Origin: Acidimicrobiia bacterium
GTDB taxonomy: Bacteria; Actinomycetota; Acidimicrobiia; Acidimicrobiales; Aldehydirespiratoraceae
Length of the DNA stretch: 44,105 nt
Assembly (NCBI GenBank): GCA_021296315.1
Contig: JAGWAO010000001.1
Coordinates: 1 to 44,105 of the forward strand
Reading direction: 5' to 3'
The position numbers and the translations under genes are program-made. A model generated the notes under the pieces. That model was not told the DNA's origin and did no database searches. It worked only from the letters and a program-made list of their open reading frames with translations. Positions 8,553 through 40,209 of this stretch are shown one piece after another; the first letter of the stretch is position 1, and each line of letters opens with the position of its first letter.

Positions 8553-8882
8553 TCAGGAGGGCGGCGGCTGCGGCCAGGCACCAACTACCGGGTGGTCGGC
8601 TTCGACAGGCTCGACGCGGGCCGCGCCGCCGGGCGAATGGAGTCCGGCTACCTCGAAGAAGCTGGCGTTGATCTCAGCGAATGCTTGGTACTCGGCTGGG
8701 AGGAACGCTTCGGGGTAGATCGCCTCGACCGGGCAGACCGGCTCGCAGGCCCCGCAGTCGATGCACTCGTCGGGATGGATGTAGAGCATCCGGCCACCCG
8801 TGTAGATGCAGTCCACCGGGCATTCCGCGATGCAGGCGGCATCCTTGACGTCGATGCAGGTTGGACCGATCACGTAAGTCAC
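8553..8882 (-). CDS. Ferredoxin, FdxA-like 7Fe/8Fe type
   Basis: About 109 residues. The sequence [27 protein letters not shown] followed by [18 protein letters not shown] gives two cysteine clusters typical of actinobacterial 7Fe ferredoxins. The first cluster (Cx7Cx3CP) fits a 3Fe-4S site and the second (CxxCxxCxxxCP) a 4Fe-4S site. I choose GTG 8880-8882 because GGGAG lies 5 nt upstream and family members start MTYVI; GTG 8886-8888 lacks spacing. The Pro/Gly-rich tail is unusual. It lies downstream of the GMC oxidoreductase pair and could be their electron acceptor (inference). A 17-nt triplication covers the start. Confidence 0.88.
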
Positions 8883-8927
8883 GGGCACTCCCGAGTCACG
8901 GGCACTCCCGAGTCACGGGCACTCCCG
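8877..8927 (-). repeat. 17-nt tandem triplication across a stop-start junction
   Basis: Three perfect copies of CGGGAGTGCCCGTGACT (minus strand) at 8911-8927, 8894-8910 and 8877-8893. The first copy holds the TGA stop of the small-subunit gene; the last holds the GTG start of the ferredoxin. Each GTGA is both a stop and a start. Reading from the GTG in one copy gives Met-Thr-Arg-Glu-Cys-Pro-stop, and that stop overlaps the next GTG by 4 nt. Two mini-ORFs thus bridge the genes. The ancestral junction was probably a simple GTGA overlap. Confidence 0.95.
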
Positions 8928-9332
8928 ATAGCCGGGGTGCCTGTCATAGACCCGCTCCAGCATCTCAACGTATTCGGGCTCGGCCGCCACCGACATCGGG
9001 CTGGGCTGCTGGCCGGGGTAGCCGATCAGCTCGCGCACATCGGCGCTGAGGTAGTAGGCACCGACAACGGTCGTGGACAAGACGGCGAAGTCGTCGGGTC
9101 GACTGGCCGCAAGTCGGCGGGCGAAGGCGGCGAGCCCGTCCGCGGGGGCCTCGTCGAGCAGAGCCATCAGCGGCCCTGCCAAGGCCGGAGCGGCGTCGAG
9201 GCATCGATCCAGCAGGCGGTCGGCCACGCCGACGGCCGAGGCGGCGGGCATGCCGAGCCCCTCGGCCACGAGGATGTCGGCCAGCCCCGCCAGCGTCAGG
9301 CGCTGGGCCGATGTCGGCCCGGAGTCGCTCAT
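8913..9332 (-). CDS. Gluconate 2-dehydrogenase subunit 3-like small subunit
   Basis: A 139-residue protein starting MSDSGPTSAQRLTLAGLADIL. The segment VVGAYYLSADVRELIGYPGQQPSP matches the AYY...V...IGYPG signature of the gluconate 2-dehydrogenase subunit 3 family, small partners that accompany FAD-containing GMC dehydrogenases. No Tat or Sec signal is visible, unlike many family members, so a cytoplasmic complex is likely. The ATG overlaps the TGA of the GMC gene (9329-9332). The family assignment rests on this C-terminal motif and the neighbour. Confidence 0.72.
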   Translation of the reverse strand: MSDSGPTSAQRLTLAGLADILVAEGLGMPAASAVGVADRLLDRCLDAAPALAGPLMALLDEAPADGLAAFARRLAASRPDDFAVLSTTVVGAYYLSADVRELIGYPGQQPSPMSVAAEPEYVEMLERVYDRHPGYRECP

Positions 9333-10960
9333 GAAGGCACGACCTGCGACGCCCGTGCCCCGATCAGGCGGTCGGCGACACGCAGGGCGTTGGCCATGAT
9401 GGTGGCCGTCGGGTTGGCCGACCCGCCCGTGACGAACACGCCGCCGTCGATCACGTAGAGATTGGCCACGTCGTGGGCCCGACACCAGCGGTCCACCACC
9501 GAGTGCCGAGGATCGTCGCCCATCCGGGTTGTGCCCAGCACATGGCCGATGCCGGTAGGCCAGACGCCGCGCACCAGGGTGGACACCGCTCCGGCCGCTT
9601 CAGCCGCCTCGACGGCGCGAGCCACGTTGAAGTCGAGCATCCTCCGGGTGTTCTCCGACACCCGGTACTCGACACGGGCGGCCGGCAGACCCGAGGAGTC
9701 GCACACCTCGGGATCGAGGACCACCCGGTTGTCGTCCTCGGGGAGATCCTCCGCCTGGATGCCCCAGGTGAAGGCGTGTCCGAACACCTCGGCAGCCGCC
9801 CGGTGGAAGGCCGGACCCCACACCGCGTCGAAGCCCTCGTGGCGGTGCGCCTCCTGGTATTCCGCCACCGCGAACATCGGCCCGCCGTGCGGCATGACCA
9901 TCCACTTCGCGCCGCGGACAAAGTCGCGGTCGGGATGGGTCTCGGCGAACTCCAAGGAGTAGATGCTCTGCCCCCAGGGACCCTGCCAGCTATCGAGAGA
10001 GTCTTCGCAGACAGCCGTCACCGTTCGGTAGGGATGCTGCATGAGTCGGCGTCCCACCAGTCCCGAGGAGTTGGCCAGACCGTCCGGGAACCGCGGCGAC
10101 TCCGACAGCAGCAGCAGCCGGGCGGTTCCCACGGCGTTGGCCGCCAGGATCACCACCTGCGCCTGCTGCAAGTGCTCGTTCCCGTCGCGGTCCAGGTACA
10201 CGACGCCGCGGGCCCGGCCACGCTCATCGAGGGGGACCTGCGCCACGCGGGCGCCACTCACCAGGCGGGCGCCCGCGGCCAGCGCCGACGGCCAGTGAGT
10301 GAGCGACGGGGTGGCCTTGGCGTTCTCGGGGCATCCCACCATGCATGTACCGCGCCGCTGGCAGGCCTGAAGCGAACCGTGGCGCCGCGAGGCTATGGCG
10401 TTGGCCCCGGGCCACCAGTGCCACCCGAGCCGGTCCATGCCTCGGGCGGCGGCCATCCCGATCTTGCCGATCGGGATGGGTGGGTTGGGGTAGGTGTCAA
10501 GCTCAGGAAGGGCTGGATCACCGCCCAGGCCCGACACAGACATGTCCCGAGCCACCTGAACGTACGGCTCGGCCAGATCGGACCAGCCGATCGGCCAGTC
10601 GTCGGCCACACCGTCGAGGGTCCGCACCCTGAAGTCCGACGCGAGCAGCGGCTGCCACATGGCGGCCCACTGCACCAGCCCACCGCCGACGCCGTTGTAC
10701 ATGACCGGACTCACGTCGGGCTCGCCGGTCAGCGGATAGTCGGCCGGCCCCCGGCGGATGTTGGGGTCGGGGTTCCACCGCTCGACCCAGGCCAGTTCGG
10801 CCTCCGGCCGGTCGCTCAAGTAGTCCGCCGGGCCCGTCCAGTCGCCCTGTTCGAGGCAGACCACCTCGACACCGGCGGCAGCCAGGCGGGCGGCAGCGAC
10901 CGCGCCCGAGGCGCCTGAACCGACGATCACGACATCGGACTGCCGTTGCTGCCTCATCAT
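9329..10960 (-). CDS. GMC-family FAD oxidoreductase
   Basis: A 543-residue glucose-methanol-choline oxidoreductase. The FAD loop VIVGSGASGAVAA lies at about residues 11-23, a cysteine motif (CQRRGTCMVGCPENAK) in mid-protein, and the GMC C-terminal domain has the catalytic pair His (about 473, GHVLGTTRMG) and Asn (about 516, GGSANPTATIM). Enzymes of this type oxidise alcohols, sugars or sterols; the substrate is not deducible. The start is ATG 10958-10960. A TACAAT -10-like box on the minus strand (10974-10979) would give an almost leaderless transcript. First gene of the leftward arm of the divergent island. Confidence 0.9.
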   Translation of the reverse strand: MMRQQRQSDVVIVGSGASGAVAAARLAAAGVEVVCLEQGDWTGPADYLSDRPEAELAWVERWNPDPNIRRGPADYPLTGEPDVSPVMYNGVGGGLVQWAAMWQPLLASDFRVRTLDGVADDWPIGWSDLAEPYVQVARDMSVSGLGGDPALPELDTYPNPPIPIGKIGMAAARGMDRLGWHWWPGANAIASRRHGSLQACQRRGTCMVGCPENAKATPSLTHWPSALAAGARLVSGARVAQVPLDERGRARGVVYLDRDGNEHLQQAQVVILAANAVGTARLLLLSESPRFPDGLANSSGLVGRRLMQHPYRTVTAVCEDSLDSWQGPWGQSIYSLEFAETHPDRDFVRGAKWMVMPHGGPMFAVAEYQEAHRHEGFDAVWGPAFHRAAAEVFGHAFTWGIQAEDLPEDDNRVVLDPEVCDSSGLPAARVEYRVSENTRRMLDFNVARAVEAAEAAGAVSTLVRGVWPTGIGHVLGTTRMGDDPRHSVVDRWCRAHDVANLYVIDGGVFVTGGSANPTATIMANALRVADRLIGARASQVVPS

Positions 10961-26816: not shown

Positions 26817-29743
26817 AGCCCCGCCGCCTCCCCCGGCGTCTCAGCATCGTCGGTTCCGGCTTCGGGAGCCCGTCTCGAGCGCACTATGAGCCACGCGACC
26901 GCTGCGAGGCCGATCAGGGTGACCGCCATCGAGAACCACTCGACCGGGCTGCGGCCGTAGGTCAGGCGGACCTCGGTGTCGGTGGGCACCACGACCATGA
27001 AATTGGGGGTCACCCGGTACGGCCCCCTGGCGCCCGCGACGGACCAGTTGGGAAAGTACGACGTCTTCACCAGCACCGGCGATCCAACGCGATCCACCGT
27101 GAACGAGATCGAATGGTCCCCACGGACCAGGCCGCTGATCCGTGCCGGCTCAATGCTCTCTGCGGGCGCGACGTCAGGTAGGACATCCGCCAGCCGGCGC
27201 ATCACCTCCTGCCGGCCCAGATCGGCGCCGGACAGCCCGTCGCCCGGCTCTCGGAGGACGTCGGGCAGGGTCATCCGGGGCCAGTCGGCGGGCCCGCCGG
27301 CCGCGAGCAGGGGTCCGTCCCCGTCGGTGGCTCCGAAGGCGCCGACCGATGCCTCGAGCCAGTCGTCGCTCGAGTCGTCGAGGCTCCCGACCACCACCGG
27401 CAGCGTGGACAGTCCTGTCACCGGAGCGCTGCCGGACACCGCGAACACGACCCACGGACCCAGCGTCGTCGAGCCGATCTCGGTGAGTCCGGCCGATGCC
27501 CGGGCCTGGCGCACCGCGTCGGAGGAGAACGCCATGTAGTAGCGAACCCCCATGAGCCTCATGTGCTCCACGCCCCTGGCGACATCGAGTCCCGAGTAGG
27601 GCAGGTCCCGCTGGGCCCGTGACGGGGCGGACGACAACTCGGACTGCATCAGGAAATGGTACGGGACGGTGGCCGAGGCCTCGAAGTAGAGACCCTCCAT
27701 GGAGGCGATGCACCGATCGGTCCAGTACGGCAGCAGCATGGGCGCCATCGGCGTTCCGTAGGACCCGAGCCGTCCGGCCTCGTATTCCCAGAGGGCCGGG
27801 CCGCAGCCGTGGGTCTCGCCGATCCGGTCCATGGTCTCGACTAGATCCCAGTACTCGGAGCTGCCCCCGCCGTCGGCGGTCGGGCCCCTGCCCTCGTAGC
27901 CCTCGAAGTTGTACTCGACCCAGTACGAACCGAGATTCGACTCACTGGAACTGAACGGTCCCCACCGGTAGACGCCGTCGTCGCCGAGCTGCCCGCCGGG
28001 CAACGAGCGCAGCGGCAGCCCCACCATCACCATCACCGCGGCCGCAATCAGCGCCACCGCACCGCCGGCCGCAACCGTCCCCGCCGACCTTCGCACGAGC
28101 CCCGCCGGTGTCGCCTCCCGTACTTCTACGGCCCCCGCTCTTCCGACTTCGGCCTCTCCGGCTCCCGCTTCTCCGGCTCCCGCTTCTCCGGCTCCCGCCT
28201 CTCCGGCTCCCGCCTCTCCGGCTCCCGCTTCTCCGGCTCCCACTTCTCCGGCTCCCGCTTCTCCGGCTCCCGCTTCTCCGGCTCCCGCTTCTCCGGCTTC
28301 GTCGGCCCGCACCGCCAGCCACCGGTCCATGGCCGCTCGTCCCATCCGGATCGCCTCGCCCATGCCCAGAGCCGCCGTCAGGTACACGGTGAGGTAGTAG
28401 AAGGGCAGGATCCGGACATTCCAGAGGCGTCCCTCGGGCAGGATCACGAAGCCGGCGGCGACGATCGCTCCCGTCAACGCCAGCGCCATGCCGAGCCGTG
28501 CCCGCCTGAAGAACAGCAGCCCCGCTCCCACCAGCGCCAGGACGATGAACAGCTGCAGCGGCGGATCGTTCGTCAGGAAGCTGTAGTCGAACTCGCGGCG
28601 GGACCACAGCGAGGACAGGTAGCGGCGCTCCTTTCCCCAGCCCATGTCGTTGAGCAGGCTCCGGTTCCACCAGAACGGCAGCACCCACCAGGCGCTGAGA
28701 GCCGCGGCGAGCGCTCCGGTGGAGACGGTCCAGGAGAGCCGGCTGCGCCACTTGTGGGCGCGCCACGTCAGGACGAGCAGCAGCGCAGCCACCGCGGCCA
28801 GCGCGAAGAAGGCGGAGAACAGGTGCATCAGCCCGGTGAGGGCCAGCAGAGTGCCGGCCAGGACCCGGTGACGCCCCGAGGGCATGCCCCGCGCTGCCAC
28901 GCCTATGAACAGGACCGCGCTGGCCAGGCCCAGCGAGTAGGCGAACTCGCCCGCCATGGTCGACATGAGGTTGCCGCCGTAGATGTTGAACGAGCGGTCG
29001 AACAGGAACAGCAGCGTGGCCACCGGAGCCAGCACCTGACCCTCGGTGGAGACCCCGCCCAGACGCGCCATCGCCCACACCGCCACAGGCAGCGCCACCA
29101 CGCCGGCGATCGTCACCAGCTTCAGAGCGACGCCGTAGGGCATGGGTACCGCGAGCAGCGCGAGGGTGGCCGCGGCAACGGCCGCTCCCGCCCGCCAGCG
29201 GGGTCGTCCCCGCAGGCCGTACCACGCCCACCAGGCTGCCGTGGCGGGCAGCAGCAGCCCGGCCAGGGCGCGGTTGGCCACCGGGTCGTCGATGAACAGC
29301 TTGGCCGCCCCGGCTATCCCGGCCACACCCAGCGCGACGGTCCAGCACTGGCTGAGGGGCCGGCCCGCCCGACGGGCCGCCGCCATCACGACCGCGCCGG
29401 CCGCAAGGGCCACTGCGAGGTAGGCGAAGACGGCGGTATGAAGGTCGAGGCCCACGTCGATCATCACGACGAGCAGCGACGGGACCACCATGTAGAACGT
29501 GAATGCGGGAAAGCCGGCGTACCAGTCGTGGGTCCACCCGGTCAGCCTCAGCTCGCCGATGAGGACATCCCTCAGGTAGGCGGGTGCCCAGACGTGGGCT
29601 CCGAGGTCGCCCCCGGTGGGCGTGGTGTCGGTGAACCAGAGCCAGGGCCGCAGGTTGACGACCACGAACCCGACGACCGCGACGAGCACCGCCAAGAGCA
29701 CCGCCACGTCGGGGACGAGCCCCCGGCGGCGACTGCTCAACAC
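26813..29743 (-). CDS. Large polytopic membrane protein (PTPS-related/GT-C-like)
   Basis: About 976 residues with a dozen or so membrane segments, then a large extracytoplasmic domain and a final membrane segment (about 940-960). After the first helix comes WFTDTTPTGGDLGAHVW, an acidic loop like that of 6-pyruvoyl-tetrahydropterin-synthase-related and GT-C membrane glycosyltransferases. Residues about 483-531 are an AGAGE pentapeptide repeat in a cytoplasmic loop. I favour GTG 29741-29743: TATGCT (minus strand, 29752-29757) lies 8 nt upstream, suiting a leaderless start. It is coupled to the GT2 gene. The exact reaction is unknown; transfer of polyprenyl-linked sugars is likely. Confidence 0.75.
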   Translation of the reverse strand: MLSSRRRGLVPDVAVLLAVLVAVVGFVVVNLRPWLWFTDTTPTGGDLGAHVWAPAYLRDVLIGELRLTGWTHDWYAGFPAFTFYMVVPSLLVVMIDVGLDLHTAVFAYLAVALAAGAVVMAAARRAGRPLSQCWTVALGVAGIAGAAKLFIDDPVANRALAGLLLPATAAWWAWYGLRGRPRWRAGAAVAAATLALLAVPMPYGVALKLVTIAGVVALPVAVWAMARLGGVSTEGQVLAPVATLLFLFDRSFNIYGGNLMSTMAGEFAYSLGLASAVLFIGVAARGMPSGRHRVLAGTLLALTGLMHLFSAFFALAAVAALLLVLTWRAHKWRSRLSWTVSTGALAAALSAWWVLPFWWNRSLLNDMGWGKERRYLSSLWSRREFDYSFLTNDPPLQLFIVLALVGAGLLFFRRARLGMALALTGAIVAAGFVILPEGRLWNVRILPFYYLTVYLTAALGMGEAIRMGRAAMDRWLAVRADEAGEAGAGEAGAGEAGAGEVGAGEAGAGEAGAGEAGAGEAGAGEAGAGEAEVGRAGAVEVREATPAGLVRRSAGTVAAGGAVALIAAAVMVMVGLPLRSLPGGQLGDDGVYRWGPFSSSESNLGSYWVEYNFEGYEGRGPTADGGGSSEYWDLVETMDRIGETHGCGPALWEYEAGRLGSYGTPMAPMLLPYWTDRCIASMEGLYFEASATVPYHFLMQSELSSAPSRAQRDLPYSGLDVARGVEHMRLMGVRYYMAFSSDAVRQARASAGLTEIGSTTLGPWVVFAVSGSAPVTGLSTLPVVVGSLDDSSDDWLEASVGAFGATDGDGPLLAAGGPADWPRMTLPDVLREPGDGLSGADLGRQEVMRRLADVLPDVAPAESIEPARISGLVRGDHSISFTVDRVGSPVLVKTSYFPNWSVAGARGPYRVTPNFMVVVPTDTEVRLTYGRSPVEWFSMAVTLIGLAAVAWLIVRSRRAPEAGTDDAETPGEAAGL
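28156..28299 (-). repeat. 15-bp coding tandem repeat, about 9.6 copies
   Basis: Nine full copies and a partial one of a 15-bp unit (plus strand CTCCGGCTCCCGCTT, with CCT or ACTT variants at three units). It lies in frame in the large membrane protein and encodes repeated Gly-Glu-Ala-Gly-Ala. Because 15 is a multiple of 3, copy number can change without breaking the frame. Near-perfect identity suggests recent expansion. Confidence 0.95.
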
Positions 29744-30524: not shown

Positions 30525-30676
30525 ACGGGACCTTGACGGCATGGATCGCCACCGTACCGGAAGAGGGCGCCACCGCATTCGGTGCGTCCCAACTCCGGCC
30601 GTCAACAGGCACGGAGCCGCTGAGCGCTGACTCTCCCAGACCGTTGGCCGGATTGGTCATGCCTCTCACACCGTGA

Positions 30677-30730
30677 TGCATGCCATTGGATGCATGCCAT
30701 TGGATGCATGCCATTGGATGCATGCCATTG
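30677..30730. repeat. 14-bp tandem repeat upstream of membrane protein B
   Basis: Three perfect copies of TGCATGCCATTGGA (30677-30718) and a fourth of 12 bases (30719-30730). Each unit contains the palindromes ATGCAT (across the junction) and GCATGC. It lies in the divergent spacer between the CPBP protease and membrane protein B, so copy number could alter promoter geometry. Base composition is far less GC-rich than its surroundings. Confidence 0.95.
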
Positions 30731-39376: not shown

Positions 39377-40072
39377 TCACGGGCCGCTCGGGCCACGGCC
39401 CCGCAAGCTCGGCCTCTGGGCCCAGGCCTCCAGCAGCTCCGAGGACGTCACCACCGTGGCCACCATGGCCAGGGAGTGTTCGATCACGGATTCCGCGTAG
39501 CCCGCAGGGACGCCCGCCACCGCATCCCGCACCAGCACGACCTGGTAGCCGAGATCGACGGCGCTGAGGCACAAGCCCATGACGCCCACATTCACCGACA
39601 CGCCGGTGGCCACAACGGTGGTCACGCCGAGGTTCCGCAGGGTCTGATCGAGCGAGGTGGAGGTGAACGGCGTCAGGCCGTGTCCCCGGGCCGCGATCAG
39701 GTCCCGGGAATCGTCCCCGAGCTCGGGCACGAGCCGCGCCCCGTCGCTCCCGGCGAGAGTCGGGGCGATCCCCTGCTCACGGCGCAGCTTGTCGGCCAGC
39801 CCGAGGATCCGGCAGTTGACGGCGCCGCCCGCTCCGTCGGCGCGAGTCTGCACGACGCAGTGGACCACACGCGCCCCCACGTCCCGGGCCGCGTCGCACA
39901 CAGCCGCGGCGGCGCGGACCGTCCCAGCCGCCGCCACCTGCTCGGCCAGGGCCTGCATCATGGCGTCCTCACCGACGACTCCCCTCTGCAGCTCCATGGT
40001 CAGCACCGCAGTCGAGGCTGGATCAACCAGCGCGGCCAGCACCTCGACCCCCCGCCCGGATGCCGTCGTCAT
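39377..40072 (-). CDS. Isochorismatase-fold protein without catalytic cysteine
   Basis: A 231-residue member of the isochorismatase/cysteine hydrolase superfamily by fold signature: AVLTMELQRGVVG, LRNLGVTTVVATGVSVNVGVMG and DLGYQVVLVRDAVAG. The usual Asp of the triad is Glu27 (TMELQ) and the nucleophilic Cys of the T-D-V-C-V type motif is Gly (VNVGV). A lysine at the expected middle position is not evident. It is probably not a classical hydrolase; it may bind a ligand or use other chemistry. The ATG (40070-40072) sits at the end of a 17-nt repeat chain. An 80-bp spacer separates it from the GT2 start and shows no gene. Confidence 0.78.
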   Translation of the reverse strand: MTTASGRGVEVLAALVDPASTAVLTMELQRGVVGEDAMMQALAEQVAAAGTVRAAAAVCDAARDVGARVVHCVVQTRADGAGGAVNCRILGLADKLRREQGIAPTLAGSDGARLVPELGDDSRDLIAARGHGLTPFTSTSLDQTLRNLGVTTVVATGVSVNVGVMGLCLSAVDLGYQVVLVRDAVAGVPAGYAESVIEHSLAMVATVVTSSELLEAWAQRPSLRGRGPSGP

Positions 40073-40147
40073 GCGATCACCGCCGTCACGCCATCACCGC
40101 CGTCACGCCATCACCGCCGTCACGCGATCACCGTCGTCATGCGATCA
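40068..40147 (-). repeat. 17-nt tandem repeat forming a chain of mini-ORFs at a start codon
   Basis: Four full and one partial 17-nt units (typical plus-strand unit GTCACGCCATCACCGCC). On the minus strand they form four consecutive six-codon frames: MTTVIA-stop, MTAVMA-stop, MTAVMA-stop and MTAVIA-stop. Each stop overlaps the next start as GTGA or ATGA, and the last leads into the ATG of the isochorismatase-fold gene. A 21-nt frame minus a 4-nt overlap equals the 17-nt period. Confidence 0.93.
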
Positions 40148-40209
40148 AGTGTGGCACGCCTCTAGTGTGCGCGGTGATGCGCTGTCCAGGCAACGACCGG
40201 TAGGCAGCG

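Follow-up and report, generated by a model that had tools for sequence, protein, structure and literature searches.

Short tandem repeats at gene starts form serial stop-start chains in a genus of Acidimicrobiia

We observe that, in one genus of Acidimicrobiia, short tandem repeats directly ahead of genes form chains of minimal open reading frames (mini-ORFs), each ending in a TGA that overlaps the next start as RTGA. We consider it probable, at roughly 60%, that such arrays arise by tandem expansion of a stop-start junction and that duplications survive there when the path of the ribosome to the gene stays open. The same junctions are found in single and in expanded form in different species, and the repeat lengths show a frame bias within the genus. 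Two of these arrays lie in the window, a 44,105-nt stretch of DNA from a 2.66-Mb draft genome (G000; 83 contigs, 86% complete), one ahead of an isochorismatase-family gene (iso) and one ahead of a ferredoxin gene. The features are as follows.

39377..40072, minus strand: isochorismatase-family gene (PF00857, E 1.6e-26; 231 aa), ATG at 40072
40073..40089, minus strand: 17-nt unit 4, GTGACGGCGGTGATCGC, mini-ORF MTAVIA from GTG40089 to a stop ending at 40069
40090..40106, minus strand: 17-nt unit 3, a copy of unit 2, mini-ORF MTAVMA from GTG40106 to a stop ending at 40086
40107..40123, minus strand: 17-nt unit 2, GTGACGGCGGTGATGGC, mini-ORF MTAVMA from GTG40123 to a stop ending at 40103
40124..40140, minus strand: 17-nt unit 1, ATGACGACGGTGATCGC, mini-ORF MTTVIA from ATG40140 to a TGA ending at 40120
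40137..40157, minus strand: leading mini-ORF MPHLIA (GTG...TGA), start GTG40157, its TGA within the ATGA at 40140
8553..8882, minus strand: ferredoxin gene (Fer4, PF00037), start GTG8882
8883..8916, minus strand: two extra exact 17-nt units, GTGACTCGGGAGTGCCC, each with GGGAG and an RTGA stop-start overlap
8913..9485, minus strand: gene upstream of ferredoxin as listed ORF; the coding-potential call is 8913-9332

At the iso locus, four minus-strand 17-nt units (40140-40073) stand directly 5′ of the ATG of the gene (40072). Each is made up of a start, five sense codons and a TGA that forms RTGA with the following start. A sequence-only reading of the window had described these four mini-ORFs and had claimed that the last overlaps the gene's own ATG; all four lie where it had placed them, and the stop of unit 4, ending at 40069, does overlap ATG40072. 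The chain is one step longer than first described: the MPHLIA mini-ORF overlaps ATG40140 in the same RTGA manner, giving five small-ORF RTGA overlaps in series before the gene. Every ATG or GTG start from GTG40157 to the gene, in all frames, terminates at the start of the following unit. Tandem-repeat detection reports 40063-40147 (period 17, 5.0 copies, 91% matches), of which 40073-40140 is full units and the rest a partial copy. By a hand estimate, the constancy of RTGA across the iso units does not reach significance. The unit pattern has exact matches in G000 at the iso locus only and, with 2 mismatches, is found at 31 further places, unit 1 itself among them. On the minus strand, a block common to relatives, CCACACTTGATCGC, precedes the units.

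The array occupies the divergent gap between the iso gene and an epimerase gene. The epimerase gene (GTG40210) is itself preceded by a short ORF, MRCPGNDR and a stop (window 40177-40203, plus strand), with TAGTGT 14 nt 5′ of its ATG; by eye, similar ORFs occur in several relatives. At the other end of the iso gene, its TGA (minus strand, near 39377) lies within a copy of a dispersed repeat with core GAGCGGCCCGTGAGCGCAGCGAACA, which recurs, at ≤5 mismatches, in 92 copies spread over 49 of 121 stretches.

The nearest named relatives of the iso gene come from Acidimicrobiaceae or Acidimicrobiia metagenome bins, and a close orthologue (at least 77% identity) is found in 12 of the 16 genomes of the genus, G000 included. 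The insertion site is common to seven close genomes, again including G000. The number of units at this one locus differs between species: G009 and G012 have 0, G014 and G005 have 1, G000 has 4 and G007 has 5, while the site in G002 carries an unlike insertion of 37 nt. No array was found in the other five genomes with an iso orthologue (G015, G001, G006, G008 and G010). The MPHLIA peptide and its overlap are kept in six of the seven close orthologous loci; the exception is G002, where the leading GTG is in frame with the iso gene. In all five genomes with an iso insertion, the first ATG past the conserved block CCACACTTG is still linked to the gene by a series of overlapping stops and starts. 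The mini-ORF peptides give no sign of conservation; changes between units alter the residues (MTTVIA, MTAVMA, MTTVTQ, MTTVTE).

The ferredoxin array (8877-8928) holds three RTGA junctions 17 nt apart. An array with arithmetic identical to that of iso had been proposed at 8877-8927, and the two extra exact 17-nt units are indeed present before GTG8882. The TGA of the upstream gene (8915-8913) overlaps the first array start, GTG8916; this first junction holds the stop of an upstream frame with 228 open codons, and the last junction is GTG8882. Where G000 has three RTGA overlaps, six relatives (G003, G012, G007, G002, G008 and G010) have one, at the end of upstream frames of 161-423 open codons. 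By this comparison of species, the ferredoxin array is an expanded overlap that is single-copy in the six relatives. G015 carries an older duplication of the ferredoxin start, placed 44 nt upstream and diverged to 25 of 34 matching bases; the ORF from this duplicated start likewise stops in overlap with the next start.

The sequence-only reading had left open whether such arrays exceed chance, and had noted that a unit length of 2 modulo 3 keeps the RTGA overlap. The arithmetic holds, and scans of the genus show an excess over chance. We searched the 16 genomes for four RTGA at a fixed period, merging overlapping matches by hand into distinct arrays, and found 0 arrays at period 13, 7 at 14, 1 at 16, 14 at 17 and 0 at 20, that is, 21 arrays of 14 or 17 nt against 1 of 13 or 16 nt. 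The sole period-16 array is antisense to a gene. With the expected ratio of 13/16 to 14/17 (4:7) taken from 11 divergent-gap arrays, the binomial P is 0.001, computed on 21 arrays, the full count being 22. Reversed-pattern controls at period 17 gave 6 raw matches in the genus. At period 15, 16 matches were found and 9 loci inspected with no clear start chain, the upstream gene ending in the first RTGA at one of them (L325); at period 18, 11 matches and 7 inspected loci gave no demonstrated start chain.

We classified 20 of the 21 arrays of 14 and 17 nt by position, leaving out one of period 17 (G004:C46). A same-strand gene start adjoins 13 of the 20, with the iso locus counted twice (G000, G007). 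Genes at such arrays include those for citrate synthase (G002) and cytidylate kinase (G015) and a TtuA-like gene (G000:C13), where an unbroken chain was confirmed; in a start-adjoining array of G008, a stop breaks the last unit. The remaining 7 of the 20 lie away from same-strand gene starts: two are antisense (G000:C25, G002:C250), three have an upstream gene that ends in or before the array and no recognised gene 3′ (G011:C11:334712, G015:C34, G011:C10), and two are without a recognised gene (G004:C31, G011:C11:294077). A conserved overlap was not the origin of every array: in G011, the start of the single-copy relative of the citrate synthase gene lacks RTGA. At the orthologue of the TtuA-like gene in G009 (L092), a GTGA/ATGA pair 35 nt apart stands ahead of the start and forms a single relay, MKCRAAVMAASQ and a stop; G000 has 17-nt units at that site, and G010 has neither.

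Across the phylum, the period-17 pattern is found in 20 of 296 evenly sampled genomes (our own included) vs 17 of 296 for period 16, and no frame bias between the two was found in this sample. With so small a difference between 16 and 17, the bias can be claimed for the genus alone; the length bias that the sequence-only reading had asked about is thus present in the genus, where 13 of 20 arrays also adjoin starts, and was not found in the phylum-wide sample. Among 21 inspected period-17 loci of the phylum, called with a crude gene caller and leaving out a few listed arrays without a locus, about 3 are start chains (L222, L226, L232); in four others (L223, L228, L237, L241) the first RTGA holds the end of an upstream gene and no clear gene lies 3′. 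Several of the period-16 matches are 8-nt units. Ten period-16 loci were inspected, of which L335 is an 8-nt-unit chain at a start and L328 and L330 are ambiguous. The L335 array (G187) consists of seven 8-nt units, GTGACGGA, running from the stop of the upstream gene to the start of an ORF, each unit being a three-codon relay (MTE and a stop).

We also scanned an unbiased sample of 2.39 Mb (N excluded), drawn from 11 genomes and made up of 120 stretches together with the window, for arrays of any sequence at periods 8-60. This gave 213 arrays, from which 11 simple repeats were dropped for the location classes. Within genes, 112 of 113 arrays have a period divisible by three. Divergent-gap arrays, with periods mostly of 13-18 nt, fall 5/6/8 into lengths of 0/1/2 modulo 3 (n=19), with no clear frame bias among them; the corresponding counts are 25/5/13 in codirectional gaps, 1/2/2 in convergent gaps and 4/1/3 at stretch ends. 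One window array with a period divisible by three is a 15-nt unit, CTTCTCCGGCTCCCG, in 11.7 copies at 28123-28298.

Copying of the start codon itself was then asked, with gene starts taken from codon-bias calls (a position-filtered model in the sample census); 8 start arrays from a longest-ORF-trained caller, which mis-called antisense ORFs, were left out. In the 2.39-Mb sample, 14 arrays duplicate a gene's start codon. The chain, counted as kept if the upstream ORF ends from 2 nt before to 4 nt past the next start, is kept in 10 of the 14, including one whose start is uncertain (L080), and in 9 of the 12 whose length is not 0 modulo 3. Random duplications at 1,625 gene starts leave the chain intact in 26-32% of cases (P 0.0005-0.003), and with the two window arrays removed it is kept in 8 of 12 (P 0.004-0.014). 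The chain is broken in L077, which adjoins an N gap, in L078 (period 40) and in two arrays of period 16, L268 and L305, the stop in L305 lying 8 nt past the next start. Two real chains fall outside the strict rule and are not among the 10 of 14: L183 (32 nt, d +2) and the iso array of G007 (L090). A looser count of arrays ≤30 nt from a start (1.19 Mb; 9/5/8 for 0/1/2 modulo 3) showed no excess of 2 modulo 3, because it did not ask for a copy of the start codon.

If L is the unit length and d is the next start minus the stop end, an unbroken chain has L = d modulo 3 by arithmetic alone. Beyond the arithmetic, the finding is that intact chains are commoner than expected from random lengths, and that they occur across several spacings: d of -4 with units of 14, 17, 32 and 35 nt, d of -1 with 44, d of 0 with 33 and d of +1 with 52. 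Single-copy relatives were found for two of the longer units. At an ABC-ATPase gene (L102; 35 nt, d -4) the G009 unit is missing from G000, and at an amino-acid-kinase-family gene (L183) the G000 units are missing from G011; long upstream frames of 127 and 442 open codons, respectively, end at these junctions.

We discarded the idea that 17 nt is special as such: RTGA arrays occur at 14 nt and start chains at 32-52 nt, and the divergent-gap arrays, mostly of 13-18 nt, have no clear frame preference. Also discarded as a third relay of the window was the array at 30675-30730, which makes no RTGA chain. It consists of four exact copies of a 14-nt unit in a divergent gap, with a 20-codon minus-strand ORF, MACIQWHASNGMHPMACITV and a stop, ending 5 nt before ATG30660. 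An exact four-copy 17-nt array in a divergent gap of G009 (L103, 8927-8995) has no RTGA, and so the period alone does not need the overlap.

These observations suggest the following origin. A short segment holding a gene's start codon and the overlapping stop would be duplicated, probably by replication slippage, and then duplicated again. With each unit added at iso, the array would gain one minimal cistron, consisting of a start, five sense codons and a TGA that forms RTGA with the following start. A ribosome entering at the first start would terminate and restart serially until it reached the real gene, and a start chosen anywhere in the array would likewise end at the following unit, the units probably being passed by termination-reinitiation. 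Duplications at gene starts would then persist mainly if the path is open, i.e. if L = d modulo 3, and selection of this kind may be the cause of the bias. As mutation supplies mostly units of ~13-18 nt, those of 14 and 17 nt would survive at -4 overlaps and those of 15 and 18 nt inside genes. Overlaps of this RTGA type are common, a -4 overlap being usable in 253 of 899 codirectional gene pairs. Termination-reinitiation at overlaps has been measured in Haloferax and E. coli, with Shine-Dalgarno (SD) sequences helping to a varying degree, as far as the available part of that study goes (PMC6728339). In the sampled genomes, TANNNT is enriched at 12-14 nt before the in-frame starts of first genes, where it is about eight to ten times as frequent as at most positions nearby, a placement that suggests leaderless transcripts; at the iso locus the equivalent position holds only CACACT.

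A rather unlikely alternative is that the arrays are products of slippage and drift alone, with the gene initiating at its own start, selection acting only against upstream frames that cross the gene start, and no hand-over of ribosomes. Copy number (0-5) and unit sequence do vary freely between species, and the encoded peptides are not conserved. Every ferredoxin unit contains GGGAG, so direct initiation is possible there. At iso, however, by eye no SD-like sequence is found in the units or 5′ of the gene start within the array, so independent initiation there would proceed without a visible signal. Since this alternative predicts the same frame filter as a relay, the counts do not separate the two.

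It is quite doubtful that the genus keeps a population of short, locus-derived start-codon relays whose unit number is a fast-mutating translational dial, in which each 14- or 17-nt unit would add one step of termination and restart and so lower or re-time output. Under this reading the gene would never be broken, since survival would be confined to lengths that match the stop-start spacing modulo 3. The adaptive form, in which repeat number is a hypermutable setting of output and each restart costs a fraction of the ribosomes, has an outside chance. Copy number varies at one locus among six species, and the available part of a report on M. tuberculosis links higher mRNA with greater length of the repeats that end at the fpg1 start (PMC2734929). 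The identified array-bearing genes, on the other hand, have no obvious function in common (ferredoxin, citrate synthase, cytidylate kinase, FtsX-type permease, DUF1015).

We think it very improbable that the array is a DNA-level element, such as an operator or iterons, between the divergent iso and epimerase genes. It does lie in a divergent gap, and other such gaps also hold arrays, some without RTGA (as at L103); however, G009 and G012 have zero copies, arrays at different genes have no evident common sequence beyond RTGA, and several arrays sit at operon junctions with the stop of the upstream gene in the first unit. An assembly artefact is scarcely credible: every genome was assembled from metagenome data and some repeats have N gaps nearby, and the iso units occur in NODE-named records (G007, G014, G005) whereas k141-named records have none (G012) or another insertion (G002), but the units are ordered and diverged, the arrays are shorter than common read lengths, and k141-named G002 itself carries a 17-nt array at citrate synthase.

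If tandem expansion of a stop-start junction is correct, the duplications that compact genomes can tolerate at gene junctions would follow a simple rule, namely a unit length that matches the stop-start spacing modulo 3. From such chains one may learn how small duplications at gene starts are tolerated, or even how genomes employ them to tune protein output. The iso alleles with 0, 1, 4 and 5 added restarts are natural templates with which to measure the cost per termination-reinitiation step. Should repeat number set the protein level, the array would be a minimal contingency locus with which it is hard to break the gene.

A literature search, made on partly available texts, found no report of serial RTGA mini-ORFs from short tandem repeats; no precedent emerged from it for very short units that are locus-derived, stand in series and obey a length rule. 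The individual elements have known counterparts, cited here for the sections accessible of each source. Leaderless mRNAs of mycobacteria carry over-represented RTGA-coupled small ORFs (PMC4633059), likewise short upstream ORFs whose TGA overlaps a downstream RTG, and the same relation, a short-ORF TGA forming RTGA with the next start, is found at iso. In one mycobacterial example the architecture is kept and the peptide sequence is not, and the leading MPHLIA ORF fits this picture; in the cases described there, one small ORF stands ahead of a gene, whereas here there is a tandem chain of four or five duplicated units of equal length (PMC4633059). MIRUs (mycobacterial interspersed repetitive units) are repeats that stand at start codons and contain an ORF in -4 nt coupling with the gene, a coupling that, per the accessible portion of a review, likely permits insertion with little effect on expression (PMC12548453). 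The iso units resemble them in standing at the start codon with a -4 coupled ORF (PMC12548453). MIRUs are of 40-100 bp, at 41 scattered places in M. tuberculosis, and unlike them the units here are of 14-17 nt, are unrelated between genes and apparently derive from the local junction (PMC2734929); no dispersed family of related 40-100 bp units corresponds to the 17-nt iso units. At fpg1 of M. tuberculosis, variable tandem repeats that are absent from most other mycobacteria end at the start codon and are linked to mRNA level (PMC2734929). There too the number varies (here between species) and the array ends at the start codon, but the fpg1 units are of 55 and 79 bp, with no stop-start chain described in the text seen, in contrast to the chained short units here (PMC2734929). 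Gene pairs coupled by termination-reinitiation, in the sections available to us, have the overlap geometry and the likely mechanism in common with our arrays; the members of those pairs are real genes, whereas the arrays described here are serial mini-cistrons (PMC6728339).
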